Origin: a virus
Reading direction: 5' to 3' (one strand)
Virus record (IMG/VR): IMGVR_UViG_3300030108_002126
Span: 1-27,602 of that record
DNA length: 27,602 nt
Within the stretch, counting starts at the first letter, position 1. Every line of letters begins with the position of its first letter. Positions 5,461 through 26,005 of the stretch are shown here, in pieces. The notes below the pieces were generated by a model. It saw only the letters and a program-made list of their open reading frames with translations. It was not told the origin of the DNA and searched no databases. A program made the position numbers and the translations under genes.

Positions 5461-5464
5461 TAAT

Positions 5465-5671
5465 ATGACATGGGAAGAAGTATTAAAGAAGAAAAAGAAG
5501 AAGTCTACCGTAAATCAGTCTGGAAACTATACAAAGCCTGGAATGCGGAAAAGAATTTTTAATAGAATTAAAGCGGGAACAAAAGGCGGTGCGGCAGGTC
5601 AATGGTCTGCAAGAAAAGCACAAATGCTGGCTCAAGCGTATAAAAGGGCTGGTGGTGGCTATAAAAATTAA
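5465..5671 (+). CDS. Small tagged basic protein with K-G-G-x-x-G-Q-W-S-A-R-K core
   Basis: A protein of 68 aa from ATG 5465, preceded by GGTGAT with three bases spacing. An upstream in-frame ATG at 5369 lies inside the 833-aa gene and is less likely. It begins M-T-W-E-E-V-L-K followed by a run of lysines. The body has N-Y-T-K-P-G-M-R-K-R-I-F and then a G-Q-W-S-A-R-K-A-Q-M-L-A core ending G-G-G-Y-K-N. I associate this core with short uncharacterised proteins of phages and large algal viruses, but cannot name the family. It is strongly basic, so nucleic-acid binding is plausible. The end overlaps the start of the next gene. Confidence 0.8.
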   Translation: MTWEEVLKKKKKKSTVNQSGNYTKPGMRKRIFNRIKAGTKGGAAGQWSARKAQMLAQAYKRAGGGYKN

Positions 5672-7165: not shown

Positions 7166-7452
7166 GCGAGTGGCAAGAGATTCTTAAAAGAAAAAAGAAG
7201 CCATTCAAGGGCTATAATAAAAAAATTCACGCAAGAACTGGTGGATTAAGCGCAAAAGGTCGAGCGCACTTTAAGCGTAAACAAGGTTCTAATCTAAAAC
7301 CTCCTGTTACTACTAAGCCAAGCAAATTAAAAAGAGGCAGCAAAGCAGCAAAGAGGCGTAAATCTTTTTGTGCGAGGTCAAGAGGATTTAAGCGGGCTGA
7401 TGGAACTTACAGCGAAAAGGCAAAAGCAGCGAGAAGAAGGTGGAATTGCTAG
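7162..7452 (+). CDS. Tagged, very basic protein, DUF6321-like
   Basis: GTG 7162 overlaps the previous stop (GTGA) and has AGGGGAG upstream. The 96-aa product starts M-S-E-W-Q-E-I-L-K-R-K-K-K, so tag and basic tract are fused. The body contains G-G-L-S-A-K-G-R-A-H-F, then G-S-N-L-K-P-P-V, then R-K-S-F-C-A-R-S-R-G-F and ends R-R-R-W-N-C. That order of motifs matches what I remember of the DUF6321 family, found in phages and giant viruses. The assignment is from memory and moderate. Lys and Arg dominate the composition, so a nucleic-acid-associated virion protein is plausible. No catalytic motif is visible. Confidence 0.8.
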   Translation: MSEWQEILKRKKKPFKGYNKKIHARTGGLSAKGRAHFKRKQGSNLKPPVTTKPSKLKRGSKAAKRRKSFCARSRGFKRADGTYSEKAKAARRRWNC

Positions 7453-8663
7453 TGAAAGTCTTACCTGCGGTATTTTCATATGAAGATATGAAAAGGAGAT
7501 TTGCTCAGGATAATCCTGACGACCCATATACCCGCAGGGCTGATTTAGAAAGCGGTATCTATGAATTAGATAGTTGGCTTATTCGTGTTGATGACAACGA
7601 TAAAGCGATTTCAACAGTTGGTTTCAAGGAACACCCATCACATACTGTTGTTGGTGGAATGTATGCTACTGCTGAAGGAAGAAAAATAGGTGGTAATAGT
7701 AAAGCATTACAAGATGCAAGAGAACCGCAGTTAAATCAATCAAAGCCATTAGTTGCTGCATTTGGGCATAGAGATGGGGATAATGCCCGTTGGATTGCTA
7801 ATGCTAAAAAGAATGGCTGGTCTTTTCCAGATAGCGATAATTGGGAGCAAATGAGTAAATTAATTCCTAATGATGTTCTTAGTGCTTGGTTGGCTAAATA
7901 TCCTGAAAGAATGGCTATCCGTTCTATTCGTGATGAAGGGCAAATGGCTAAATGTGTTTATCTTGATGACCCTACTCCACAATGGTTTAGCCTAATGAAA
8001 AGCAATTACAAAAGACAGTTAGGCAATTCAGGTTTTAATGTTATTAGAACAAGTGATGGTAAAAGAATGAATAGTAAAGGTCTTTCTCGTTCTCAAGCAA
8101 AATCTATGATTGATGATTTAGAATCAGGTAAAGATGTTAGTCGCTATCAAAAGAAAAGGAAATCTATTACTGGTGGTTGGAAAGGACAACTTAGAAAATG
8201 GCAACCTTCTAAAGCAGACGGTTATATGGAATTTACTCAATATAAAACACAAGACTCAGGAGATGAAGAAAGTTATATTCATGAAGATTTAATGAGTATG
8301 AAAGGAACAAATAATAGAATTATGGCTACTGGACATTATATGAATCGTGGACGAAAAAGAGTTGGAACAAACGATGAAAAATTACACCTTTGGGCTAAAA
8401 AAATTATTAATAGTGGGAAGCCCACAAAAAGAATGAGTAATTGGTTTTACATGACTCCCGATGGAACTGCCCGTGATTTCAAAGTGATGTTTGATGTTGT
8501 TCCTCCAAATGCTATTTTACCTCAACAATTCGGACAAAATAGAGGATTTATTAAAAATCCTGATAAAGAAGAGTTAATTGTATTTACTACGATATTAGAT
8601 AGAAAACACAAAGTTAATTTTAAAGATTGGTATGATATGTGGGACGAGGGGGTTATGCGATGA
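7452..8663 (+). CDS. Protein with GNAT-like N-terminal region, function unknown
   Basis: Start GTG 7452 lies on the previous stop and has AAGGTGG eight bases upstream, giving 403 aa. Residues 35-125 look like a GNAT acetyltransferase core. There is a strand pair (Y-E-L-D-S-W-L-I-R-V and A-I-S-T-V-G-F), a strand V-V-G-G-M-Y followed by R-K-I-G-G-N-S-K-A-L in place of the acetyl-CoA loop, then A-R-W-I-A-N-A-K-K-N-G-W as the last helix. This is pattern recognition, not a confirmed hit. The C-terminal 270 residues are unrecognised and rich in Lys, Gly and Ser. There is no W-x-x-I-L-K tag. It overlaps the terminase start by four bases. Confidence 0.75.
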   Translation: MKVLPAVFSYEDMKRRFAQDNPDDPYTRRADLESGIYELDSWLIRVDDNDKAISTVGFKEHPSHTVVGGMYATAEGRKIGGNSKALQDAREPQLNQSKPLVAAFGHRDGDNARWIANAKKNGWSFPDSDNWEQMSKLIPNDVLSAWLAKYPERMAIRSIRDEGQMAKCVYLDDPTPQWFSLMKSNYKRQLGNSGFNVIRTSDGKRMNSKGLSRSQAKSMIDDLESGKDVSRYQKKRKSITGGWKGQLRKWQPSKADGYMEFTQYKTQDSGDEESYIHEDLMSMKGTNNRIMATGHYMNRGRKRVGTNDEKLHLWAKKIINSGKPTKRMSNWFYMTPDGTARDFKVMFDVVPPNAILPQQFGQNRGFIKNPDKEELIVFTTILDRKHKVNFKDWYDMWDEGVMR

Positions 8664-10093
8664 ATGAATTAGAAGAGTTCAATTTTGAACATCAAATGGA
8701 TATGGAGTTATCTAAGAACTCTTTTCCATATTTCTTTCAAAATGTTCTCGGTTTTGATTTTCCATCATATATACAGGAATGGCATGAGTTAATGCATTCT
8801 ACTCAAAGAACTGTAATTATTTGTTCAAGAGACCACGGAAAATCTGTATTTATGCATAGTTGGGTTGTTTGGAAATTAATCTTTGAAGAACCTCCATATC
8901 AAATGTTATACATCTCTTCTAACCAAAAACAGACTTTGGTTCACATGAGAGACATAGATAAAATGTTTCAACACCCAATGCTTAAAAAGTTTAAACCCGC
9001 AAGAGGTTGGGCTATTGGAAACATTACATTGACTAATGGCAATCAAATCCTTGAGAGGTCGGTTGGTTCACAGATTCGTGGATTACACCCTCAAGAGATT
9101 GTTATTGATGACCCGTTGAAAGAATTTAGTATGACGGGTATTCAAAAAGTAACTGATTGGTTTTATGGCGACATGATACCAACACTTCACCATACGGCTT
9201 CGTTGAGGGTAATAGGAACTCCGTTTAGTTATACTGACATATATCAGCAATTAGCCGAAAATCCTGCATACACGGTTAATACTTATCCATGCCTAAATGC
9301 CCTCAACGAACCCCTATGGCCTGAAAGATGGAACTATGAAGCATTGATGGCTAGAAAGGCGGAAGTTGGTTCTTTGATGTTTACAAGAGAATATATGTGT
9401 GTTCCTATTTCAACTGGAACTTCTCTCTTTAATGTTGAGCATTTAGATAATGCGAAGAACAAAGACTTGGTTCTAAAACCAATGAGAAGAGAGAATCACA
9501 AATATTTCATAGGTATTGACCCTGCTATTTCAACAGATGGTGATTACAATGTAATTACAGTCATTGAAATGGATGAAGAAGAAAATAAATCAATAGTGTA
9601 TATTGACCGAGCAAAGAATGTTCAGTTCCGAGAAAACATACAAAAGGTAAAACTTCTTGGACAGTTATTTAGACCCGAAGTTATTCTTTTTGAAACAAAC
9701 ACATTTGCTAAATCTTTCACTCAGGAATTACGACAAGTTGCTGATTTAAATATTCACGACTTCAATACAACAAGAAGAAAAAAGCAGGAAGTAATTCTTA
9801 ACTTACAAATGACTCTTGAAAACGGCAAGATGAACTTTCCTTATGGTAATGAAGAAAGTAGAAGAGTTACTGGATTATTAGTTGAAGAATTGTCAATGTT
9901 TGCAATTACTGATAGAGGAAAATTTGAGGGAATAGGAGCGCATGACGATATGGTTATGAGTCTTGCTTTAGCCAATGCTGCTACATACCAAGCCTCAGAA
10001 ACCTTCATACTGCTTGATGATTTAGGGTTGTTTGACGATGATTCAAAAGGCGCAAAACGCACAGTAAATAGTGCCATAGGTCTTAATTTTTGA
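8660..10093 (+). CDS. terL: Terminase large subunit (packaging ATPase-nuclease)
   Basis: A 477-aa motor protein that pumps DNA into the procapsid and cuts it. ATG 8660 overlaps the previous stop, with GAGGGGG upstream. The ATPase half has a terminase-type Walker A C-S-R-D-H-G-K-S (about 55-62), Walker B E-I-V-I-D-D-P (about 146-152) and a coupling motif L-R-V-I-G-T-P-F (about 182-189). The RNase H-like nuclease half has F-I-G-I-D-P-A (Asp 287), V-I-L-F-E-T-N (Glu 345) and G-A-H-D-D-M-V-M-S (Asp 429/430). All catalytic positions are present, and the length is normal. No small subunit is recognisable nearby, though the next gene could be a candidate. The portal follows about 1.8 kb downstream. 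Confidence 0.95.
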   Translation: MNELEEFNFEHQMDMELSKNSFPYFFQNVLGFDFPSYIQEWHELMHSTQRTVIICSRDHGKSVFMHSWVVWKLIFEEPPYQMLYISSNQKQTLVHMRDIDKMFQHPMLKKFKPARGWAIGNITLTNGNQILERSVGSQIRGLHPQEIVIDDPLKEFSMTGIQKVTDWFYGDMIPTLHHTASLRVIGTPFSYTDIYQQLAENPAYTVNTYPCLNALNEPLWPERWNYEALMARKAEVGSLMFTREYMCVPISTGTSLFNVEHLDNAKNKDLVLKPMRRENHKYFIGIDPAISTDGDYNVITVIEMDEEENKSIVYIDRAKNVQFRENIQKVKLLGQLFRPEVILFETNTFAKSFTQELRQVADLNIHDFNTTRRKKQEVILNLQMTLENGKMNFPYGNEESRRVTGLLVEELSMFAITDRGKFEGIGAHDDMVMSLALANAATYQASETFILLDDLGLFDDDSKGAKRTVNSAIGLNF

Positions 10094-10102
10094 GGTGTTT
10101 AT

Positions 10103-11464
10103 ATGACAGAACAAGCAGATAAATACCGTCAAGCGGCTCAACAAATGCAAAGATTAGCCGAATTAGATGAAGAAGAGTCTGAAATGAAGGATAGTGTGCA
10201 AAGAGAACTTGGAATAGAATTAAAGTTTATTTTTGCTGATAGTCCTGTATTATCTGAGCATGAAGAAATAAACAAAATATCTGAAGTTTATGGATTAAAT
10301 GCAACTCAAGCAAGGAAAGAATTAAATGCTTTTCCTGATAAATATGTTATTCAAGAACAAAGCATTCCTGATTTAGTTAAGAAGATGAGAAACGCCCGTC
10401 GTAAATTAAAAGGTAATCAAAGAGATAGAATGTCAAAAGCAATTGATACTATGATTGATGCTTATACTGACCATTTAGGTAAATGTATTGATTCTATTAC
10501 TTGGCTTACTGATTACACTATTCCTTTGAAAAAGATGAGATATAATGAAAAAGATTTACATAAACTTTACACCATGAAAAGTCTTGATGAAAGAAGAGAA
10601 GTCGTTGATGCTCTTTGTAAATACTGGGAAGCAGAATTAAATCAAAAAGACATGGCTTATGGAAAAGAATACAGTCAAATGTATAATGAAATGAAAATTG
10701 CTAAGAAAGAATTTAGAGATTGTTTAGCGAAGGTTTCTAATCAATCTATTACAAAAACAAAGAAAGAAAGACAACAAGATTTTATTCTTAAATCTGTTTG
10801 TGAAAATCCAGGAATTAGTGCCAAAATGATTCATGAAAAAATGCCTACTCCTTTGTTTAAAATTTCATCTCCTAATTCTATTTCACAGACAATAAAGAAA
10901 TTAGATATTATTTCATACAAAGGCAGTTTCTATAAAGCACCTTCTATGTTAAAGAAAAACATTTGGGCTTATACTGCTGCATTTATTGACTCCGATGGAT
11001 ATATTACTTTAGATAGAAATATGAATCCAAGAGTAGGATTAGTGGCAACAGGGCAAAGAGGTCGAGCATTTATGGAAGAAATGCACAAATCAATAGGTTT
11101 TGGTCGTATGCACTTAGACCAAAAATCACCACAAGATACTCGTCTTATTAACAGATTAAACTTTTATTCTCAAAATGATGTTAGAGAACTTTTAACTAAA
11201 TGCTTACCACATTTTAGATTAAAGAAGGGTAATGCTAAATTATTGTTAGAATTAATTCGTATGAAGAAGTCTTACAAGAAAGCCGATTGGTATAAACAAA
11301 GATGTGATGAGATTTTTAAATTAATGAAATGGGAGAACCATAAAGACCATGTAGGTTTTGATTGGCTAAAAGAAGGTATTTATCTTGATGATATTCAAAA
11401 GTTTAAAGACAACTGTAAAATGTCTGTTATGGATTCTTTAGAAACTATTGGAACGGTGGTTTGA
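10103..11464 (+). CDS. Protein with winged-helix and LAGLIDADG-type domain
   Basis: ATG 10103 has GAGGTG upstream, giving 453 aa. Residues 1-220 are helical and charged, with Y-G-L-N-A-T-Q-A-R-K-E-L resembling a helix-turn-helix. Residues 226-280 look like a winged helix (D-F-I-L-K-S-V-C-E-N-P-G-I-S-A-K-M-I). Residues 288-420 carry one LAGLIDADG-like core, Y-T-A-A-F-I-D-S-D-G-Y-I, followed by F-R-L-K-K-G-N-A-K-L-L-L-E-L-I. In homing endonucleases the last acidic residue of that motif binds the catalytic metal. Asp 298 keeps it. It is a complete gene, not an intein or intron insertion. A role in terminase or packaging, or as a domesticated endonuclease, is inference. Confidence 0.8.
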   Translation: MTEQADKYRQAAQQMQRLAELDEEESEMKDSVQRELGIELKFIFADSPVLSEHEEINKISEVYGLNATQARKELNAFPDKYVIQEQSIPDLVKKMRNARRKLKGNQRDRMSKAIDTMIDAYTDHLGKCIDSITWLTDYTIPLKKMRYNEKDLHKLYTMKSLDERREVVDALCKYWEAELNQKDMAYGKEYSQMYNEMKIAKKEFRDCLAKVSNQSITKTKKERQQDFILKSVCENPGISAKMIHEKMPTPLFKISSPNSISQTIKKLDIISYKGSFYKAPSMLKKNIWAYTAAFIDSDGYITLDRNMNPRVGLVATGQRGRAFMEEMHKSIGFGRMHLDQKSPQDTRLINRLNFYSQNDVRELLTKCLPHFRLKKGNAKLLLELIRMKKSYKKADWYKQRCDEIFKLMKWENHKDHVGFDWLKEGIYLDDIQKFKDNCKMSVMDSLETIGTVV

Positions 11465-14112: not shown

Positions 14113-15816
14113 ATGCTCTTTGAATTATCTAAAGATAAATCTTTGCTTAGTATGTTAAGCAAGGCAAATTTAGATGAACATACTGCTAAATTAGTTAAGG
14201 GTGAAGCAAACCCTACTGAAATTAAAAAGTCTTTGATTGAAAACATAAATTCAGATAATATCGTTGCTTACAGAAAATATATTAAAAAGGCAGAAGAAGA
14301 GGAAGAAACTATTCGTGAGAGAGAAGAAAGAAAAATTACTGAATCTCAAAGGAAAAAAGCAATTCAACTTCTTGCTGAAAAGGAAGGAACTTCAAAAGAA
14401 GAGGTAAATACTTCTGTAATTCCTACTACAAAGAAGGAAGCAAGAAGGTTTATTATAGAATTAGAAAGAGAACTCAAAACAGAAAAAGATATTGGTGTTG
14501 ATGATGATTCACCGCAAACTTCTGAATTAGAAACTGATAAGGATAAACAAACTAAACTTCAAGCGGCTGAGGCTTCAAAGGAAAGAAGACTTGAAGCAAA
14601 GAAAAAAGATGCTCAAAGGCAATTAAATAAAGCAACAAACTGGTTAGGAGAAGTAGAAGATTTAGTAGAAAAACTAGATTATACGGTTTCAGATGGAAAG
14701 GTTGAAGTTAAGCGTCTTGCTGAATATCAAAAGTTTGGAAATAGCCTTACTGAATCCAACGAAGTTATTTCTTTAATTATGCTTTATGAAGGTAATGATA
14801 AATATTTAAGTGATAGATATTCTGAAGTATTAGTTGATTATGACTTTGGTAAAGGTAAAGAAAGTAATATTTTAATGCCCTACAAACAACTGAAAGGTTC
14901 AGAACAAATGATGCCTGTTCCCAAAAAAGCAGTATTTGTAAACGATTTAGATGAAAGATGGTCTAAATTAACAAAAGCGAATTATAAGGGAGTTAAGTTG
15001 TCTGATATTGTAAAGGAAATGCACCGTAAAAGACACGGAAAGCAACCTGTTGTTGATAGAAAAGACAAACAAAGAAAAGAAGAACTTCAAAGATTGCAAA
15101 GATATATTTCAGGAGAGTCTCCAAGAGATGCGTCTAAATTCAAAAAACTAAGAAGTAAAGTGAAAAAAATAAATTCTCAAGTTACTAAATCTAATGCAGA
15201 TAAACTTTCTATTGAAGAAAATATCAAAAGATTAAAAGGTCTTGATACAGAACAAATTGTCGCTGAAAAGGTTAAAAGAATATCTAGGGGTGTTAAAGAC
15301 CTTAGCGATGTTGGCAGAATGAGAGAAGCAATTGCTTCTATTAAGGATATTCAAGAAAACCCTGAAAAATATACTGAGGAATTTACTCAGGAAATTAAAG
15401 ATGCTATCGAAGAACAACAAGAAAAATTAGTCGTAGTAACTAACGAGATTGATAAATTAAATATGCTCAATCCTGTTCTTAGAAGAGTTAGGAGAGCATT
15501 AGGCCAAATTGACAATGTAAGAGAAGATACTGGAAAAGAACCAGCAGGTGAAGTTAAAAGAATCTTAGGCAGACTAACAGTTCATATTATTCGTTTAGAC
15601 AGAACCGCAGGTAGAATAACCAAAATTTCTGAAAAGGTTGAAGATAAAACCGATTCTATTATTGAAAGACTTCAGCGTGGAGAAACTGTTGGAGAAACAG
15701 TTGAAGGTGCTTCAATCAATTCGTTAAGAGGATTAAATGAACAGTTTGCTGAACATAAAGAAAACATTGATTCTATTATGAATGAATATGATAATTTGGT
15801 AGGTGGAACAGAATGA
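14113..15816 (+). CDS. Long coiled-coil protein, 567 aa
   Basis: ATG 14113 follows GGTGAT by three bases. Almost the whole protein is helical and rich in Lys, Glu, Arg and Ile. Strong coiled-coil character is seen at about 50-110, 145-200, 310-400 and 420-550. One short stretch near 225-290 looks more globular (Y-D-F-G-K-G-K-E-S-N-I-L-M-P-Y). No tag, membrane segment or enzymatic motif is visible. Position between portal and protease fits a head-assembly or internal core protein. A tape measure is less likely, because those usually lie after the tail genes. Function is not recognised. Confidence 0.75.
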   Translation: MLFELSKDKSLLSMLSKANLDEHTAKLVKGEANPTEIKKSLIENINSDNIVAYRKYIKKAEEEEETIREREERKITESQRKKAIQLLAEKEGTSKEEVNTSVIPTTKKEARRFIIELERELKTEKDIGVDDDSPQTSELETDKDKQTKLQAAEASKERRLEAKKKDAQRQLNKATNWLGEVEDLVEKLDYTVSDGKVEVKRLAEYQKFGNSLTESNEVISLIMLYEGNDKYLSDRYSEVLVDYDFGKGKESNILMPYKQLKGSEQMMPVPKKAVFVNDLDERWSKLTKANYKGVKLSDIVKEMHRKRHGKQPVVDRKDKQRKEELQRLQRYISGESPRDASKFKKLRSKVKKINSQVTKSNADKLSIEENIKRLKGLDTEQIVAEKVKRISRGVKDLSDVGRMREAIASIKDIQENPEKYTEEFTQEIKDAIEEQQEKLVVVTNEIDKLNMLNPVLRRVRRALGQIDNVREDTGKEPAGEVKRILGRLTVHIIRLDRTAGRITKISEKVEDKTDSIIERLQRGETVGETVEGASINSLRGLNEQFAEHKENIDSIMNEYDNLVGGTE

Positions 15817-17154: not shown

Positions 17155-17168
17155 TTGAGGTGGTATTA

Positions 17169-19682
17169 TTGAAACTCGGCTCTATTGAAAAGGATAGGCA
17201 ACCATCCATTGAGTTGATGCGTCTTTTTGAAAAGACAAGAGTTGCTTATTTATCAGCCGTCCATGACCCCGAAGAATATTCGGGTCGTTGGCGTAAAGCA
17301 GTTGATATGATTAATGATTCTTTTGATGAGTTGGATGCCGCAGGTAAAGAGTTGAAGAATTTCATTAGAGAAGAAGAAATAACTGATAATGAAGTAAAAG
17401 ACCCTAAATCATCTAAAGCAAAGAACCTATTTGATAAAATTAAATTAGTTAGATATAACTCAAAGGTTATTGCCGACCCTTTTGCTGAAATGTTTAAAGG
17501 TAGTGTTCTTGAAGAATTATTAGATAATCCTGAGACAATGCTGAAATTTGTCCATTATGCTATGAGGGAAGACAATAAAGCCCTATCTGCTGACATTTTA
17601 GCCATTAAAGACATGCAACCCGACACAATTACGGAGGGTCTTATGGGACTTGACATAGAGGTGGACGATATAGCCCTCTATATTATTGAGCATTACGGGG
17701 ATGGAAAAGACTCAAAGAAGGTAGAAAAGAAAGTAAAGGCTGCCTTAGATATGTTAGAACTTATTTTCTTCTCTCAGCATGAAGAAAAAGAATGGGAAGA
17801 CCTTAAGGATATTAACATGCAAAAGTCTGAAACTAAATCAGAAAAAGAAAAATCTGTTAGTGATTTCATTATACCCAACAAACCTATGTATCGTATATTT
17901 GAAATAGATGATATTAACGAACTAAAAGGATTTAGTGGAAACTGGTATATTCAAGAAAAATATGACGGTATGCGTATTCAGTTGCATAAAATAGATGATA
18001 AAGTGAAGGTTTATTCGTTTAATGAAAAAGACATTACTGAAAAGTGTGATGAAATTGTTAAAGAACTTAAGAAAAAAGAATACGGTGATTGTATCTTTGA
18101 TGCAGAATTAGTTTTATTTGACGGAGAAGAACCACTACATCGTGCTGATACAATTGCTCATGTTTTCAAAGGAAAATACAAGGATGCTAAACTAAAGTGT
18201 CATGTCTTTGATATTATGCGACATGAAACACAGACTCTTCTTGACGAAGAATTAGAAAATAGAATGACAATTTTATTCAATAATTATGCTGCTAAATCTT
18301 CTGAGTTTCTAAATTTCCCTTCAAAGAAAGATACTCGGCAAGCGGATAGTTTAAAGGATTTGGAAGAATATTCAAAACAAATCATGGAAATGCCTACTTC
18401 TGAGGGAGTAGTAATAAAAGATGCTACTTCAACTTATTACATAGGAACAAAAAAGAATCCTAAATGGATTAAAATGAAAAAGTTTGTTGATTTAGATGTT
18501 ATTGTATTAGATAAGAAAAAGACTAAAAGCAATCTTTATTCTTATACTGTTGGTGTTGGGCCAATTACAGACGATAGAGAAGGTCAAGAGATTGATGGTA
18601 GAAAATACCTCAATGTTGGAAAAGCCCTTAATACGAAGGTTGCTGTGGACATTGGCGATATAATTAGAGTAAAGGTTGATGAAGTAAAGAAAAAAGGAGA
18701 TGGATTTAGTTTATTCTCCGCAAAGGTTATTGAAATACCAGAAGTAGAGCATCCTGATAAATTAGTTACTCTTGAGTTATTATCCCAAGATACAAAGAAA
18801 TCTTTAAATTATGATGTTGAAGCATTTAAAAAGGGAGTAAAGGTTACTGATTACATTCATGGAGAAACTACTGCCATAATTAAATTTGATACAACTGGTT
18901 TTGTTATTTATGGTTTTGAAGAGAATAATCTAATGTCAAAGAACGCTTTAGCCAACATAGATAGTTGGAGACAACAAGCAGAAGAAATCATGAAAACAAA
19001 ACAAGGTGAATTAACAGTCATTATATTCAATTACTTAAAAGAAAAAGGAGACATGACTCCAAAAGAATTGCATAACTATCTAAAGGATAAACATTCAGAA
19101 TTATACGAGACTGTATTAGATTCTAAAGAAAAGAGAGTCGGTAAGTGGGCGCAAGAAAGAGAGCATATTAAAATGATAGGTAATAAATTACATGCTGACC
19201 CTTCAATTAAACTCGCTGATAATGAAGAAATTAAAAAACAATACAAAACTCCCGAAGAATACCGTAAAGGTAAGTTTAAGATTTATAATCGAGAAGATAA
19301 TAATATTCATTTATCTATCAAAGTAAGTGATGAATTATTGAATTGGACTATTGATTTAGAAGGAGAAGATGAACTATTTGATTTGTTCGGGGCGGCTGGT
19401 AAATATCCAGCAGAAGTCTCAAAGAACATTGAAAGAGGAAAAGTTATTGATTCTGGAGATATTGAACTTGGTGTGCAAAAAGACGGCTACCATGAATATT
19501 TCTTAAAAGGCAATAAGTTTGAAACTAAAATGCATATTAGAGTGATTCCTATTGATAATGAACCCATGTGGTTAGCATGGACAGGATATAAACAAGAACC
19601 TGCCGATACTGAAAGTGATAAAGGCAAATGGAATATTTATGAAGATAGGTATAATAAATTATCCATTCCTACTAAGGATTAG
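17169..19682 (+). CDS. ATP-dependent DNA ligase core in an 837-aa multidomain protein
   Basis: Joins DNA nicks through a Lys-AMP intermediate. TTG 17169 follows GAGGTGG; GTG 17160 is inside that site. All nucleotidyltransferase motifs are visible: motif I E-K-Y-D-G-M-R with Lys 264, motif III F-D-A-E-L-V with Glu 313, IIIa H-V-F-D-I-M, IV S-E-G-V-V-I-K-D (about 411-418) and V W-I-K-M-K-K with Lys 435/437. An OB-fold-like region follows (to about 540). Extra parts are a helical N-terminal 210 residues, a winged-helix-like stretch (about 608-680) and a beta-rich C-terminal domain (about 700-837, with H-E-Y-F-L-K-G) that faintly recalls the LigD phosphoesterase domain. A ligase between head genes is unusual. 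Repair of packaged or injected DNA is inference. Confidence 0.88.
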   Translation: MKLGSIEKDRQPSIELMRLFEKTRVAYLSAVHDPEEYSGRWRKAVDMINDSFDELDAAGKELKNFIREEEITDNEVKDPKSSKAKNLFDKIKLVRYNSKVIADPFAEMFKGSVLEELLDNPETMLKFVHYAMREDNKALSADILAIKDMQPDTITEGLMGLDIEVDDIALYIIEHYGDGKDSKKVEKKVKAALDMLELIFFSQHEEKEWEDLKDINMQKSETKSEKEKSVSDFIIPNKPMYRIFEIDDINELKGFSGNWYIQEKYDGMRIQLHKIDDKVKVYSFNEKDITEKCDEIVKELKKKEYGDCIFDAELVLFDGEEPLHRADTIAHVFKGKYKDAKLKCHVFDIMRHETQTLLDEELENRMTILFNNYAAKSSEFLNFPSKKDTRQADSLKDLEEYSKQIMEMPTSEGVVIKDATSTYYIGTKKNPKWIKMKKFVDLDVIVLDKKKTKSNLYSYTVGVGPITDDREGQEIDGRKYLNVGKALNTKVAVDIGDIIRVKVDEVKKKGDGFSLFSAKVIEIPEVEHPDKLVTLELLSQDTKKSLNYDVEAFKKGVKVTDYIHGETTAIIKFDTTGFVIYGFEENNLMSKNALANIDSWRQQAEEIMKTKQGELTVIIFNYLKEKGDMTPKELHNYLKDKHSELYETVLDSKEKRVGKWAQEREHIKMIGNKLHADPSIKLADNEEIKKQYKTPEEYRKGKFKIYNREDNNIHLSIKVSDELLNWTIDLEGEDELFDLFGAAGKYPAEVSKNIERGKVIDSGDIELGVQKDGYHEYFLKGNKFETKMHIRVIPIDNEPMWLAWTGYKQEPADTESDKGKWNIYEDRYNKLSIPTKD

Positions 19683-19726: not shown

Positions 19727-20953
19727 ATGTCATCTGCGGTAATGTCAAACAATACCCATGATTTCAGAATACTCAAAAGCGACGATTTAATGATTGGAGG
19801 ATATGCAAGCATTGAAATCGTTGATAAACAAAATGATTTAATCACACTTAAGGCTCTTAATGAAGCAGTAAAGAAATATATGGAGAACCCCAAATTTAGA
19901 AATGTAATGACAAATCATTCAAATGTTCAAGTTGGGGAAGTAGTAGAATCATATAGAGATAAAACGGGGAGATTGTGGAAAACTGAAGTTGATGATGTTG
20001 GATTCTTCGTTGTAATTAAATTAAGAGATGATATTGAAAAAGCCAAAGAAATAAATAGAGGCATTCGTAAAGGTTCATTAAGGTCGTTTAGCATTGGAGG
20101 ACAAGCATTACAAAAAGTAAAGAAAAGCCATCCAGAATTAGGCGAATTTAATGAAATAAGCAAACTAGAACTACATGAGGTTACAATCTGTGAAAAAGGA
20201 ATTAACCCCGAAGCAAGGTTTGATATTCTAAAACAAGACAAAACAAAAAATAAGGTGAAAAAAATGAGTAAGATTGAGAAAGCATTGGCAGAATTGGACG
20301 CTTTGATGCAAGAGGTAAACACTCTTCGCAAAGAGGAAGATGATGAAAAGATGATGGATGAAAAAGGAATGCATGAAGAAAAAGGAATGCATGAAGAAGA
20401 AAAAATGGGTGGCGAGTATATGGACACAGAAGAGGATATGATGGATGAAAAAGGCGATTATTCCGATGATGAAGCAAAAGCAGTCCTAAATACTCTTGAC
20501 GCTGGCGGTATCGAAATTGGCGAACCTGCTGATAGAATCGTTATTGACAACGGAAACCCAAAGGCTTCCGATTTACCTGTTGTTAAGGCATTCGGAAACA
20601 ATGAATTAGAAACGCTTGATTTGAGCGTTGCTAACATTGAAAAGGCTTATGAAGCATTCCGACAAGAGCAACTTGAAAAGTTGGCTTACGATAACTTGCA
20701 AAAGCAATTTGAAACTCGCTTTGCACAAGAAAAGGCAAACCGTGAGAACATTCTCGCAAAGTCTCAATATGATGCACAAAGCGAAATTACTTCCCTAAAG
20801 GAAGAATTTACTGCACTAAGGAAGTCTTTGACGGCTGAAAAGGAAACAATCCTAAAGGCTCAAGAAGAGGCAACCGTTCAACTCCCATCAATGGAAGAAT
20901 TAGCCGAAATGGACTGGTCTGACATTCACAAAATGGTTGGAGGATTTAACTGA
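19727..20953 (+). CDS. Prohead protease fused to scaffold domain
   Basis: A 408-aa precursor that assembles with the capsid protein and then digests the scaffold. ATG 19727 has GAGAGGA upstream. Residues 18-170 match caudoviral prohead proteases of the HK97/S78 type: G-G-Y-A-S-I-E-I-V-D-K-Q-N-D, then T-N-H-S-N with catalytic His 64, then G-S-L-R-S-F-S-I-G-G with the catalytic Ser (most likely 122), then L-H-E-V-T-I. Residues 180-390 are scaffold-like: very acidic and Met-rich (200-250), then coiled coil (300-385). The C-terminus is M-D-W-S-D-I-H-K-M-V-G-G-F-N, the shared tag, at the place where scaffolds usually bind the capsid protein. An internal start at 20264 could yield scaffold alone. 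Confidence 0.9.
   Translation: MSSAVMSNNTHDFRILKSDDLMIGGYASIEIVDKQNDLITLKALNEAVKKYMENPKFRNVMTNHSNVQVGEVVESYRDKTGRLWKTEVDDVGFFVVIKLRDDIEKAKEINRGIRKGSLRSFSIGGQALQKVKKSHPELGEFNEISKLELHEVTICEKGINPEARFDILKQDKTKNKVKKMSKIEKALAELDALMQEVNTLRKEEDDEKMMDEKGMHEEKGMHEEEKMGGEYMDTEEDMMDEKGDYSDDEAKAVLNTLDAGGIEIGEPADRIVIDNGNPKASDLPVVKAFGNNELETLDLSVANIEKAYEAFRQEQLEKLAYDNLQKQFETRFAQEKANRENILAKSQYDAQSEITSLKEEFTALRKSLTAEKETILKAQEEATVQLPSMEELAEMDWSDIHKMVGGFN
20254..20258 (+). promoter_or_regulatory. Internal ribosome site for free scaffold
   Basis: GGTGA lies five bases before an in-frame ATG at 20264, inside the protease/scaffold gene. The element and its spacing match the start sites of neighbouring genes, for instance at 14113 and 16182. 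It sits exactly at the junction between the protease and scaffold portions. Confidence 0.6.
20264..20953 (+). CDS. Scaffold protein from an internal start (nested in protease gene)
   Basis: Translation from ATG 20264 would give a 229-aa protein beginning M-S-K-I-E-K-A-L-A-E-L. It would contain the whole acidic and coiled-coil scaffold part and the C-terminal tag without the protease. The ribosome site GGTGA precedes it by five bases. This is the layout known from lambda, where scaffold Nu3 is made from an internal start in protease gene C. That both products are made here is inferred from sequence alone. Confidence 0.6.
   Translation: MSKIEKALAELDALMQEVNTLRKEEDDEKMMDEKGMHEEKGMHEEEKMGGEYMDTEEDMMDEKGDYSDDEAKAVLNTLDAGGIEIGEPADRIVIDNGNPKASDLPVVKAFGNNELETLDLSVANIEKAYEAFRQEQLEKLAYDNLQKQFETRFAQEKANRENILAKSQYDAQSEITSLKEEFTALRKSLTAEKETILKAQEEATVQLPSMEELAEMDWSDIHKMVGGFN
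20360..20395 (+). repeat. Two tandem 18-base units in the scaffold
   Basis: The unit starting GAAAAAGGAATGCATGAA occurs twice in direct succession and codes for E-K-G-M-H-E twice. The M-M-D-E-K-G string around it recurs 90 bases later. It lies in the acidic linker of the scaffold and could vary in copy number. Confidence 0.8.
20909..20938 (+). other. C-terminal tag copy in scaffold (M-D-W-S-D-I-H-K-M-V)
   Basis: Residues 395-404 of the protease/scaffold. The same pattern, M-x-W-x-[D/E]-[I/V]-x-K, opens many small proteins in the window and closes the 81-aa protein. In many tailed phages the scaffold C-terminus is the part that binds the capsid protein. Confidence 0.8.
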
Positions 20954-20964
20954 GGTGATTTATT

Positions 20965-22326
20965 ATGACAGGATATATTAACACAATTGGAGATTTAGAA
21001 GCACAAACCTACGGATTAACTGGGCATACTGGTATTAACAACCAATTGCTTAAGCAAGCAGGTTCAATTGCAGGACTACACACAGGACATGATGCATCAA
21101 TTGGTGTATCAAGCACTAATTCAGCAAGTGCAGCAAGTTCGCTTGGTGCGCTTTATAACAAGATTTACGGTCAAAAGGTTTGGTCTATGCTAAATAGAGA
21201 GTGTAATGCACTTTCAGTCATTTCAAAGAGGCCATACACTTCAAGCGGTTGGAGAGTTCTTTCGGAGCGACCTGCTGGTGGAAGCGGTAATTTCCTTAAT
21301 TTAACTGGTGTAAATGAAGGAACATCCGAAGCGACTATTGGTTCAAATACAATGCGACCTGACTTAATTGGTGGTGTTCCAGAAAATGCGGCACTTTCAA
21401 CTGCGGCTGATGGTTTAGCGTCTGTTGCTCCTAAATACGAGCAATTGTTCACTAGCCCGAAAATTATTGCACATCAATTTGAGTTCAGCGAATTGGCTAT
21501 GGAAATGGCACAAATTGACGATGGAATTGGCGATATTAGAGCGCAAATGAGAGAAGACATGGGTAAGCACCACGCTGAAACTCAAAACTCTATGCTCGTT
21601 ATGCCTCTTGAAAACTACAATTTGCAGGCTACAAACCAAATTGCTAACATTCAAAGAAACTATACTTCTTTGATGAAGGTTGTTTCCTCTAAGGAAGAAT
21701 TAGACGCTATGGCTTCTGGAACTGTTTTAACTGCATCTAACTCAGGTGTTGCAGCAATTGAGACTCTTTATGGTAAGGCTCGAAGTAGCGCATCTTTCCT
21801 TGATTCACAAGTTGATTTCGGTGGAGTTGGATATGCAAGTGGAAATGCTCGTTCTTTGACTCTAACTGTTCTAAACAACACAATTAGAAACTTGAGAGTT
21901 GCAGGTGGTTCACCAAAGGTCATTCTTACTGGATATGACACTCTTCAAACCATTTCTGACTTATTGCAAGCACAAGAAAGATTCATGGATAGAAAAGAAA
22001 TTGTTCCAACTGTGAACGGTGTTCGTGGTGTTAAGGGTCAAGAAGTCGGATTTAGAGTTTCTACTTACTACGACATTCCTATGATTCCTGTTGCGGCTAT
22101 GCCTTCAACTGGTGCAAATACTTCTTGTATCGCTGATATGCTTTTCCTTGATACAGACCATTTGTGGCTATCTGTTATGAAACCAACTCAATACTTTGAG
22201 GATGGTATTTCAAACGGAAACCCATTCGGTGTCGGTCATCTTGGAAACAAGGCTCTTTATCGAACCATTGGGGAAGTTGGTTGTTCTTACTTCAAGGGTC
22301 AAGGTAAAATCACCAATTTACTGTGA
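20965..22326 (+). CDS. Major capsid protein, HK97 fold
   Basis: The shell subunit, 453 aa. ATG 20965 follows GAGGTGAT by five bases. The N-terminal 60 residues are Gly/Ser/Ala-rich and probably flexible (possible target of the protease). Features that fit an HK97-type capsid protein are the early helix V-W-S-M-L-N-R-E-C-N-A-L-S-V, a long helix with A-Q-M-R-E-D-M-G-K-H-H-A-E-T-Q-N (spine-like, about 190-210), and a C-terminal A-domain strand series ending in M-L-F-L-D-T-D-H-L-W-L-S-V-M-K-P. That last motif is typical for capsid proteins of archaeal and marine tailed viruses. Codon use is less A/T-biased than in the accessory genes, as expected for high expression. It directly follows its scaffold. 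Confidence 0.9.
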   Translation: MTGYINTIGDLEAQTYGLTGHTGINNQLLKQAGSIAGLHTGHDASIGVSSTNSASAASSLGALYNKIYGQKVWSMLNRECNALSVISKRPYTSSGWRVLSERPAGGSGNFLNLTGVNEGTSEATIGSNTMRPDLIGGVPENAALSTAADGLASVAPKYEQLFTSPKIIAHQFEFSELAMEMAQIDDGIGDIRAQMREDMGKHHAETQNSMLVMPLENYNLQATNQIANIQRNYTSLMKVVSSKEELDAMASGTVLTASNSGVAAIETLYGKARSSASFLDSQVDFGGVGYASGNARSLTLTVLNNTIRNLRVAGGSPKVILTGYDTLQTISDLLQAQERFMDRKEIVPTVNGVRGVKGQEVGFRVSTYYDIPMIPVAAMPSTGANTSCIADMLFLDTDHLWLSVMKPTQYFEDGISNGNPFGVGHLGNKALYRTIGEVGCSYFKGQGKITNLL

Positions 22327-23386: not shown

Positions 23387-23782
23387 ATGGCAGCATTAAA
23401 TAATGATACACGACTTGTTATGACAATTCTTTTTGTTGGAGCATTAAGTGGAGCAAATGTTTTTACTTACGCTACAATTGGTTTAGGATTTCCTTATGGC
23501 CCTATTGCTCATTCGTTCTTATTTGGTTTAGGAACAATTGGTGCAATTATGGTTATGAAAGCAATTTTTGATTTAGCACTTAATGATAGAATTGAGATGT
23601 GGCTACTTGATAGAAAGATTGCTGCTTATTGGGAAAGAAAAGCAAGAGACGAACAACAAAGACAAAAAATGCGTGAAAGCGCAAGACAGTTTGGTGGTTC
23701 AACACCTTTCTATCAACCTCAATTACAACAGGAAGAAGAATCAAATACTGTTGGAAGCGAGTTTTTAGCCACACTCCAGTAA
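23387..23782 (+). CDS. Membrane protein with two transmembrane segments
   Basis: ATG 23387 follows GGTGG. The 131-aa product has two hydrophobic segments, about 9-31 (V-M-T-I-L-F-V-G-A-L-S-G) and about 40-66 (S-F-L-F-G-L-G-T-I-G-A-I-M-V-M). After them comes a charged helix (W-E-R-K-A-R-D-E-Q-Q-R-Q-K-M-R) and a Gln-rich tail (about 75-131) probably on one side of the membrane. It is followed by a second membrane protein and the small GTPase. Holin-like function is conceivable, but the long C-terminal tail argues for caution. Confidence 0.78.
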   Translation: MAALNNDTRLVMTILFVGALSGANVFTYATIGLGFPYGPIAHSFLFGLGTIGAIMVMKAIFDLALNDRIEMWLLDRKIAAYWERKARDEQQRQKMRESARQFGGSTPFYQPQLQQEEESNTVGSEFLATLQ

Positions 23783-23796
23783 TAGGAGTTGGTTAA

Positions 23797-24015
23797 ATGG
23801 TCTTTGGAGATTTAATGGGTTTTTCCGACTCAGATTACGCATATAATCAATCAAGAGCGCATTCTGCTGATGTGTTCTTTCTTAAAATGAGAGCGTGGTT
23901 TTGGGGTAGTTGCGCTACTCTTTCCGCTTTTCTTATTGGTAATATACTGGGTGTTTTTGATATAAACATCATGGGTTGGATTATTGGTGCGGTGAGTGAT
24001 TTATGGGGGCATTGA
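23797..24015 (+). CDS. Small membrane protein, 72 aa
   Basis: ATG 23797 follows AGGAGTTGG. Residues 1-30 are soluble (M-V-F-G-D-L-M-G-F-S-D-S-D-Y). Residues 31-70 contain one or two hydrophobic segments: W-F-W-G-S-C-A-T-L-S-A-F-L-I-G-N-I-L, then I-M-G-W-I-I-G-A-V. The gene ends immediately before the GTPase ATG, so the two proteins are probably made together. Role unknown; a membrane anchor or partner for the GTPase is an inference. Confidence 0.75.
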   Translation: MVFGDLMGFSDSDYAYNQSRAHSADVFFLKMRAWFWGSCATLSAFLIGNILGVFDINIMGWIIGAVSDLWGH

Positions 24016-24684
24016 ATGTCATTAATGACAGGATTTGCCATATTAGTTGGTGAAGCAGTAATAGGTTTTTGGAAAAAGGTTCATGCTATTAATTTTGGAG
24101 TTTATGGAGCAACAATGGTTGGAAAGACTACATTAAGTCATCAATTAAGAACAAGGGGAGAAGTGCCTACAATAAACGAAAGAACCGTTGGATTACATAG
24201 AGCATCAAGAAAAAATGTCAAAATAGATGGAGAATCGTGGACTCTTAAAAGTGCTGATATTGGAGGAGAAGCAATATATTGGAAAGAATGGGTAAAAGAT
24301 ATGCAAAAGCGTAAAGTTAAGTATATTATATTCATGATAGACCATAGACATTTAGATAATGAAGCAAACTTAGACCATCAAGTAGCATGGAAATTTTTAG
24401 TAGATACTATATGTTCAGATTTTTGGCCGACAGGAAGAAGAAAAAGAGAACCCGATTATCCAATGGCAGTAGGAATATGGGCTAATAAATATGATATTTG
24501 GGGAGAAAAATATCCATTAAAAGAAGGACAAACAATAGATAAACATGAAATATTTGAACCGTTTAAATATGGTATGAGACAATTGAATGATAAAGGAATA
24601 CCGTGTTTTAAATATATAGTTTCAGCAAAGTCAGACCCCGAAATGGTATATAGAGGCGTAATGACAATGATAAAAGATTATTGA
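24016..24684 (+). CDS. Arf/Ras-like small GTPase
   Basis: A 222-aa protein with the ordered motifs of a small GTPase. G1 is G-A-T-M-V-G-K-T (31-38), a Thr-rich switch I follows (P-T-I-N-E-R-T-V-G, 51-59), G3 is D-I-G-G-E (81-85), G4 is N-K-Y-D (157-160) and G5 is S-A-K (203-205). The D-x-G-G form of G3 and the P-T-I switch are Arf-like. The catalytic Gln after G-G is Glu here, so hydrolysis may be slow or need a partner. The first 20 residues are hydrophobic or amphipathic and could contact membrane, as in Arf proteins. ATG 24016 comes directly after the preceding stop. Two membrane-protein genes precede it. Viral function unknown; the family call is firm, the role is not. Confidence 0.85.
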   Translation: MSLMTGFAILVGEAVIGFWKKVHAINFGVYGATMVGKTTLSHQLRTRGEVPTINERTVGLHRASRKNVKIDGESWTLKSADIGGEAIYWKEWVKDMQKRKVKYIIFMIDHRHLDNEANLDHQVAWKFLVDTICSDFWPTGRRKREPDYPMAVGIWANKYDIWGEKYPLKEGQTIDKHEIFEPFKYGMRQLNDKGIPCFKYIVSAKSDPEMVYRGVMTMIKDY

Positions 24685-24694
24685 GGAATGAAAG

Positions 24695-25363
24695 ATGTAT
24701 CAAAACCAATTAATAGGACAGAACGCACCGCAACAGTTTAACTTAGCATTAACTCCATTACAACAGGCAAGAGCAAGTGGACAAGTAATAGAATACAAAT
24801 TTACTGAAATTAAACCAAAAAGACAACTTAATGAACTTACTAAAGTTTTAACTGCTGAACCTAAGAAGTTATTGTTTCTTAAATATGGTAAAAAGTTTAA
24901 TTTAAAAGATAGATGTGTTGTTTGTGGAATGCATCATGTTTGGGAACAAGGAGACTACTTAAGACCTCCAATACCTTTAGATAAAGTAACTAAAGGAAGA
25001 CCGCTTATGGGGACTTATTGCCCTAAACATGCCTCAATGTATATGCAATTAGAGATGTTACAACAACAAATACTTGCTGATAAACATGGGCTAGAGTTTA
25101 AGCGATTTGTTCCTAAAATGCCAAAGGTAATGAAAAGTGGCCCAATTACTGAATTATCGAAAAAAGATGTTTCGGCTCTTACTGCAAGCGGTTGGTTTAT
25201 TAAGCCACCCGCTTTAGCAGATAACAAGACGGCAAGGCAGGAAGTCATTCAACTAATAACAGAAATTAACATACTGACTGATAGAATAAATCATTTAATG
25301 TTAAAGCATGAAATCGAAGTCGTTGAGGAATCAAGTAAAATAAAAGAACCAAAGGGGGACTAA
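24695..25363 (+). CDS. Zinc-binding protein, 222 aa
   Basis: ATG 24695 follows GAGGAATGAAAG. After a Gln-rich N-terminus comes a basic region (K-P-K-R-Q-L-N-E-L). Then a metal site follows: C-V-V-C-G-M-H-H (about 74-81) paired with Y-C-P-K-H (about 108-112), a C-x2-C...C-x2-H arrangement. The second half is helical, with S-G-P-I-T-E-L-S-K-K-D-V and a final coiled coil (I-T-E-I-N-I-L-T-D-R-I-N-H-L). Family not recognised. Position in the membrane/GTPase block suggests a virion or tail-associated role by context only. Confidence 0.75.
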   Translation: MYQNQLIGQNAPQQFNLALTPLQQARASGQVIEYKFTEIKPKRQLNELTKVLTAEPKKLLFLKYGKKFNLKDRCVVCGMHHVWEQGDYLRPPIPLDKVTKGRPLMGTYCPKHASMYMQLEMLQQQILADKHGLEFKRFVPKMPKVMKSGPITELSKKDVSALTASGWFIKPPALADNKTARQEVIQLITEINILTDRINHLMLKHEIEVVEESSKIKEPKGD

Positions 25364-25366
25364 TAA

Positions 25367-26005
25367 ATGGTATTCGGAACAAGCAATAAAACTGTTTTAG
25401 GAGCAGTTCAGCAACAAAGTGACCAACAATTCAAGAATGTAAACAACTTGCTTTCTTTGCAAGATAATCATGTAGAAGAGTTTTTTCAGTATCACGGAGA
25501 ACAATTCCTAGCCGCACTTGAAAAACTTATGGAAGATGTTATTGAGCGTGTTGTTTCCCAAATGCTCTCTAAACTTTCTTTTGACACTAGCGGAACAAGT
25601 ATTACTGTCAATAGGGATGCTTTGAGAGAATACGAAAGAATTACTCAAGAAAACATTGATTTAGACCTTCAAAGGCTTTTGCAATCGGCTATCAATACAG
25701 AAGTAGTAAACCAAAGAAAACTCGCCAAACAACAGTATTTGGAATCACAAGGATTTAATAACGGACAAGTTTCCGCAGGTGCGGCAATTGCTGGTGTTAC
25801 AGGAAATATGCAACAATACCAACAAATGCAAGGTGCTATGAATAATGGTTCAGGCTATCCTATTCCACCAAGCGGAACAGACGGATATGGCCGTCCTTAT
25901 TGGATTGATGCACAAGGACAAATGAGTTATGAGCCTCCTTCAAGTGGACTTCATTTAGGTGAAGGAATCCAAAAAGCCGCAGCATGGGCTAAATGGTTAA
26001 TTTGA
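25367..26005 (+). CDS. Gln-rich helical protein with Gly/Pro-rich tail
   Basis: ATG 25367 follows GGGGGAC. The 212-aa protein begins M-V-F-G-T-S-N-K-T-V. A helical, probably coiled-coil segment spans 15-75, followed by a second helical stretch (E-R-I-T-Q-E-N-I-D-L-D-L-Q-R-L). The last 80 residues are rich in Gly, Gln, Met and Pro and look disordered, ending A-A-A-W-A-K-W-L-I. The disordered part resembles virion linker or adhesin regions. No family known. Confidence 0.72.
   Translation: MVFGTSNKTVLGAVQQQSDQQFKNVNNLLSLQDNHVEEFFQYHGEQFLAALEKLMEDVIERVVSQMLSKLSFDTSGTSITVNRDALREYERITQENIDLDLQRLLQSAINTEVVNQRKLAKQQYLESQGFNNGQVSAGAAIAGVTGNMQQYQQMQGAMNNGSGYPIPPSGTDGYGRPYWIDAQGQMSYEPPSSGLHLGEGIQKAAAWAKWLI

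Follow-up and report, generated by a model that had tools for sequence, protein, structure and literature searches.

A predicted Ras-like small GTPase in a five-gene cassette among the head genes of magrovirus-like marine viruses

Ras-type switches control membrane traffic in human cells. Prokaryotes also use Ras-like switches, such as MglA (PMC2907295). The window studied here (the whole stretch of 27,602 nucleotides analysed, belonging to a 34.9-kb IMG/VR virus record) encodes a protein that a preliminary description called an Arf/Ras-like small GTPase, located in the late or structural block of a tailed virus. This location is borne out, since a prohead protease, an SU10/HK97-type major capsid protein (MCP), TerL and a portal are encoded upstream on the same strand. 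Is the protein a genuine small GTPase, is it an Arf, and what could such a switch do among the head genes of a virus? The gene and its parts are the following:

24016–24684, plus strand: Ras-like small GTPase, 222 residues plus stop (G-box motifs, AF2 fold, conservation)
24016–24081, plus strand: N-terminal hydrophobic helix, residues 1–22, candidate membrane- or partner-binding element (AF2 helix 3–22, hydropathy, conservation)
24106–24129, plus strand: G1/P-loop GATMVGKT, residues 31–38 (sequence, conservation)
24184–24186, plus strand: candidate switch-I threonine T57, in RTVG (invariant, n=209)
24256–24270, plus strand: G3 DIGGE, residues 81–85, Glu85 being at the Ras Gln61 position (conservation)
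24484–24495, plus strand: G4 NKYD, residues 157–160, guanine specificity (sequence, conservation)
24622–24630, plus strand: G5 SAK, residues 203–205 (sequence, conservation)

The search of related viral genomes proposed in the preliminary description was productive. Successive scans of IMG/VR returned 186, 241 and 234 stretches encoding a relative of the GTPase, and a query from a second clade of the family returned 363. From the loci fetched, on hundreds of IMG/VR contigs, 209 distinct relatives were extracted that are 60–100% identical to the window protein. The ordered set of G1, G3, G4 and G5 described earlier is complete and its key residues are invariant in this family, there being no variation at G31, G36, K37, T38, T57, D81, G83, G84, N157, K158, D160, S203, A204 and K205. 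R56-T57-x-G59 is likewise invariant (n=209) and fits switch I, G2 being assigned by alignment position only. None of 200,000 composition shuffles contained all five motifs in order, which excludes a chance origin of the motif set. The substitution pattern points to strong purifying selection: the median dN/dS of the GTPase (0.106) is the lowest among seven block genes tested, and its mean identity to the window is 82.8% versus 70.5% for the MCP; it is the best-conserved protein of its block. It is nearly certain that the open reading frame is a real gene whose product is a small GTPase of the Ras superfamily. In all 209 members the Ras Gly12 position is occupied by Thr or Ser and the Gly13 position by Met, Lys, Gln or Arg, a combination that is unusual for an active Ras-like GTPase.

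The glutamate found where Ras has its catalytic glutamine had been taken as a hint of slow turnover. Position 85, preceded by an invariant DxGG, is Glu in 176 of the 209 members and Gln in the remaining 33. On a tree built without column 85, parsimony counts four Glu/Gln changes, only one of which is forced by well supported branches, so that either residue seems functional. Published work on Ras Q61E is in conflict, intrinsic GTPase activity being raised in some reports (PMC2987813, PMC10515638) and the rate falling to about one-eighth in another (PMC6813200). Slow turnover of the viral enzyme is possible but not indicated by its residue 85, and the hint is not supported. The same residues bear on the idea of a pseudo-GTPase scaffold that would bind nucleotide without turning it over and act only in assembly. 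The predominance of Glu85, the non-glycine residues at the Gly12 and Gly13 positions and the reduced hydrolysis that some reports describe for Ras Q61E (PMC6813200) would fit such a scaffold. However, it is very unlikely: no member departs from Lys37, Thr38, Thr57, Asp81 or NKxD, residue 85 has switched between Gln and Glu about four times on the tree by parsimony, and Q61E is reported elsewhere to raise intrinsic activity (PMC2987813, PMC10515638).

Structure prediction, also proposed earlier as a check, gave the element order of a Ras fold. The AF2 model, based on 73 homologues (mean pLDDT 78, pTM 0.76), consists of a helix (3–22), a strand (25–31), the P-loop, strands 64–70 and 73–83, and then the alternation of a Ras fold, ending in helix 208–221; confidence is low in the P-loop and switch regions (57–66). 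The protein is thus modelled as a Ras fold with an added hydrophobic N-terminal helix. In Foldseek searches of the PDB the best rows were Rab/Ras proteins (E 6e-9). VIA-align ranked ARL10B (Z 14.7, rmsd 2.9, 161 aligned), Rag/Gtr (14.5), Arf6 and Arl8b (both 14.3), and mimivirus Rab and Asgard ArfR (both 13.8). With a spread of about one Z unit, the top matches of the model to Arl, Rag/Gtr, Arf and Rab count as a tie. Nearly all of the 50 BFVD matches listed came from giant viruses of eukaryotes and were mostly named Ras/Rab-type GTPases.

Profile searches pointed to a small GTPase. Each of 40 members gave a match to the small_GTP profile TIGR00231 at E <= 0.1, the lowest value being 2.6e-6, and among 73 members Pfam matches were obtained to MMR_HSR1 (70, with the best Pfam E, 1.2e-5), Roc (57), Ras (51), SRPRB (44) and Arf (8). 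These five Pfam matches are weak, falling below the cut-off wherever members' bit scores were listed. The window protein itself scores 20.6 bits with TIGR00231 versus a cut-off of 42.5, and at most 17.2 with Pfam profiles versus 21–27, such cut-offs being a criterion of the profile libraries and not of the Ras superfamily. Judged by sequence, this appears to be a divergent small-GTPase family that the profiles assign to no subfamily. Another weak small_GTP match in the window, at 15175–15537, lacks a P-loop and was rejected as chance.

Membership in the Ras superfamily stands; the Arf part of the original label is not established. Residue 2 is Ser in 207 of the 209 members and Gly in none, so that the Gly2 used for N-myristoylation is absent. 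The distance from T57 to E85 is 28 residues in the window protein, while T48 and Q71 of Arf1 are 23 apart; across the family the motif count gives 28, or 39 where T46 is caught in place of T57, which is the same spacing. The Pfam Arf profile (PF00025) matched only 8 of 73 members and 3 of 7 from the second clade at E <= 0.1 (best E 7.8e-4), one member scoring 15.9 bits versus a gathering score of 22.3. These three features, and the structural tie, are the grounds for this judgement. A prenylation cysteine, a C-terminal trait of Ras, Rab and Rho, is not present either, none of the 209 members having Cys in the last six residues.

With Arf and Arl proteins (Arl8, Arl10B, Arf6, Asgard ArfR) the viral protein shares the fold of the G domain (VIA Z up to 14.7), a GKTT P-loop, D-x-G-G in G3 and an extra N-terminal helix before strand 1. 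However, besides Gly2 and the switch spacing, it differs in having mostly Glu instead of Gln and an N-terminal helix that is hydrophobic rather than amphipathic. The hydrophobic N-terminus noted earlier is confirmed (Kyte-Doolittle 1.63 for residues 1–19); G6, F7 and E13 of the helix are invariant (n=209), and hydropathy gives it no clear amphipathic character. SR-beta (SRPRB) likewise has a hydrophobic stretch at its N-terminus ahead of a single G domain, and its profile matched weakly in all seven second-clade members scanned (best E 1.8e-4). In contrast to SR-beta, the profile scores lie below the Pfam cut-off where listed, no SR-alpha partner was recognised, and the gene lies in a viral cassette. 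Rag/Gtr proteins share the Ras fold and are among the top structural rows, but no roadblock partner gene was recognised in the cassette and the viral protein has no C-terminal roadblock domain. The Rab/Ras proteins of giant viruses (Tupanvirus, Klosneuvirus, pithoviruses, mimivirus Rab 5xc5) are virus-encoded GTPases of Ras fold too; they belong to unrelated viruses of eukaryotic hosts, are 9–22% identical to the viral GTPase and are not known from a head-gene cassette. We therefore class the protein as a Ras-like family of its own that resembles Arf and SR-beta in anatomy, rather than as an Arf. Identities of 10–20% to Arf, Rag, SR-beta, MglA and archaeal families are too low for a tree to settle its placement.

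The GTPase is the third gene of a five-gene cassette located downstream of the MCP gene:

19727–20953, plus strand: prohead protease (PF04586)
20965–22326, plus strand: major capsid protein (PF17236, phrog_24667)
23387–23782, plus strand: cassette gene 1, TM2, 131 residues, two hydrophobic segments and then a charged tail
23797–24015, plus strand: cassette gene 2, TM1, membrane protein of 72 residues whose stop abuts the GTPase start
24695–25363, plus strand: cassette gene 4, 222 residues, with a strongly conserved zinc knuckle, CxxC ... CxxH
25367–26005, plus strand: cassette gene 5, 212 residues, weakly similar to a PHROG of virion structural proteins (phrog_14074, E 0.0039)

The order MCP, g22337, g22712, g23096, TM2, TM1, GTPase, zinc-knuckle gene, gene 5, large ORF and connector is kept among relatives. 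Conserved motifs are DTRLxMTILFVG ... LFGLxTxG ... LLDR in TM2 and RAHSAD ... GNIxGVFDINIMG in TM1. The distance from the TM1 stop to the start of the GTPase is 0–15 nt in most representatives, but in nine of the 73 the two genes are 291–946 nt apart (for instance, 5220–5513 in locus L073), an insert that possibly holds small accessory genes. A natural TM1-GTPase fusion that had been suspected was, on checking, not real. A model of the two proteins as a single chain, in which TGA was read as W purely to join them and no readthrough is claimed, had pLDDT 70 and pTM 0.61 and offered no usable interface, the helices merging as an artefact of the joining. Elsewhere in the window, an ATP-dependent DNA ligase of 840 residues (17160–19682; PF01068, E 5.6e-30) is flanked by the portal and prohead protease genes; a similar long ligase-like ORF occupies the same place in relatives devoid of the cassette (7195–9684 in locus L365). 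An ORF of 453 residues flanked by terminase and portal (10103–11464) matches an HNH-endonuclease PHROG (phrog_5046, E 9.8e-6).

Among 182 distinct viruses with the whole MCP-to-connector interval, the five-gene cassette is complete in 154 and entirely missing from 28, with no partial case. Viruses were sampled through the MCP and not the GTPase (109 carriers and 28 null loci), except in the last scan, which used the GTPase as query and could add only carriers (from 109 to 154). In eight null loci analysed in detail, as well as in L365 and another locus (L391), the flanking genes adjoin and no TM1-, TM2- or GTPase-like protein lies between them. No member of the GTPase family was present anywhere in seven long null records (87–96 kb) and one of 61 kb, using a query that matched carriers. 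In an MCP tree of 83 viruses and two outgroups, a single branch (SH-aLRT 100) separates the carriers from the other viruses, a pattern that reads as the whole block having been gained or lost once. Because this is a single evolutionary event, not 182 tests, the all-or-none pattern is not independent proof of joint function; the later retention of all five genes by every examined carrier says that each is kept.

This distribution bears on two further explanations of the cassette. One is that the GTPase and its partners are virion proteins, carried inside the particle or on its surface and acting at entry, for instance in DNA delivery across the host membrane. The strict synteny of the cassette between the MCP and the head-tail connector genes would suit this, as would the weak PHROG match of gene 5, which is likely a virion protein, and the small TM-bearing protein gp123 of HCTV-5 (Druskaviridae), also encoded between MCP and tail-tube genes. 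However, the 28 relatives that share the same head genes and lack the whole cassette indicate that the cassette does not belong to the core of this head type, and switch residues this conserved favour a cycling enzyme over a part of the shell, so that a packaged GTPase is unlikely. The other explanation is a host-takeover or defence module, in which the GTPase would mimic or titrate a host small GTPase, or block superinfection at the membrane. Gain or loss as a unit restricted to one clade, two membrane proteins in the cassette and a high conservation, as expected of a protein binding a conserved host target, are compatible with it. Nevertheless, the cassette is placed among head genes, which are presumed late, whereas takeover genes are usually early; PADLOC gave no match for any cassette protein tested, and a narrow-pattern scan of 84,980 genomes found no close cellular relative of the GTPase. 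A takeover module is accordingly quite unlikely. The only match of that scan was contig NZMJ01000024.1 (locus L086) of a Maricaulis MAG, whose GTPase is 84% identical to that of the window; it is probably a viral contig misplaced in the MAG.

Which viruses carry the cassette can be seen from longer records. Eighteen long relatives (84–97 kb; one of 185 kb) carry the GTPase and PolB, and 16 of them have the latter as two parts that lie in separate frames. By contrast, all seven records that have PolB but not the GTPase encode it in one frame. PolB was not seen in the records of two second-clade carriers. The 185-kb record, L047 (184733 bases), contains two GTPase copies and two PolB sets, probably because the assembly joined the genomes of two viruses. 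The MCP relatives listed in GenBank are from Druskaviridae and two methanogen-virus genomes. Magrovirales have genomes of ~90–110 kb, a virus PolB and an MCP related to that of Druskaviridae (PMC10768690, PMC12999244), and PolB is split in Aoguangviridae (PMC10768690). The long relatives of the window, not the 34.9-kb record itself, show the Magrovirales traits, and they share genome length, split PolB and an ATP-dependent DNA ligase with the Aoguangviridae member Poseidoniales virus YSH_150918. The carriers fit a magrovirus-like, Aoguangviridae-like clade, whose hosts are most likely Poseidoniales, as taken for Magrovirales. This carrier family is very common in the ocean.

A Ras-type switch was not found in described bacterial or archaeal viruses within the collections searched here. 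For both GTPase clades, tblastn against INPHARED, a collection that does not include the magroviruses ON649702 and OR863078 or Poseidoniales virus PP497040, gave no match; PLSDB gave no convincing match, and no small-GTPase family of PHROGs matched the three members tested. In HCTV-5, vir335 and vir519, the ORFs analysed in the neighbourhood of the MCP gene include no protein with a P-loop ([AG]x4GK[ST]). The GTPase is absent from the text and map legend of the published Aoguangviridae profile. Literature searches yielded no magrovirus GTPase or Arf-like archaeal virus protein, although Philosof 2017 and Prabhu 2025 may contain such an annotation, and the matches on small GTPases with archaeal viruses, Poseidoniales or phages were off topic by title.

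The reading we favour, by a modest preference, is a membrane-held GTP switch working with two transmembrane proteins at a late membrane step. TM1 and TM2, with their hydrophobic segments and directly upstream of the GTPase, fit a membrane setting; the hydrophobicity of the N-terminal helix is not specific to membrane binding, as a buried helix would be likewise hydrophobic. In such a mechanism, the N-terminal helix and/or TM1 and TM2 would hold the GTPase at the host cytoplasmic membrane, and the GTP state would recruit or open a partner, for which the candidates are the charged tail of TM2, the product of the zinc-knuckle gene and some host factor. Hydrolysis, with Glu85 or Gln85 as the catalytic residue, would then reset the switch. 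The timed step would most likely be late and at the membrane. That the GTPase acts there together with TM1 and TM2 is somewhat probable; the particular step, whether organisation of the assembly site, egress or lysis, can be named only tentatively. The membrane remodelling at lysis or entry envisaged in the preliminary description is a possibility. The fullest version, an archaeal virus with its own membrane-recruited GTP switch and dedicated membrane partners that builds or opens a late membrane site, is more doubtful still.

To our knowledge, viruses of Poseidoniales are known from metagenomes only, and how tailed archaeal viruses assemble at or exit through the archaeal membrane is little understood. 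A Ras-like switch accompanied by two membrane partners in all examined carriers of an abundant marine group provides a concrete, testable handle on this question. If the favoured reading is true, the use of small GTPases would be known beyond cells and giant viruses, five genes would constitute a minimal membrane-linked GTPase system, and viruses of prokaryotes would have a counterpart of the membrane control exerted by Arf, Rab and SR-beta.
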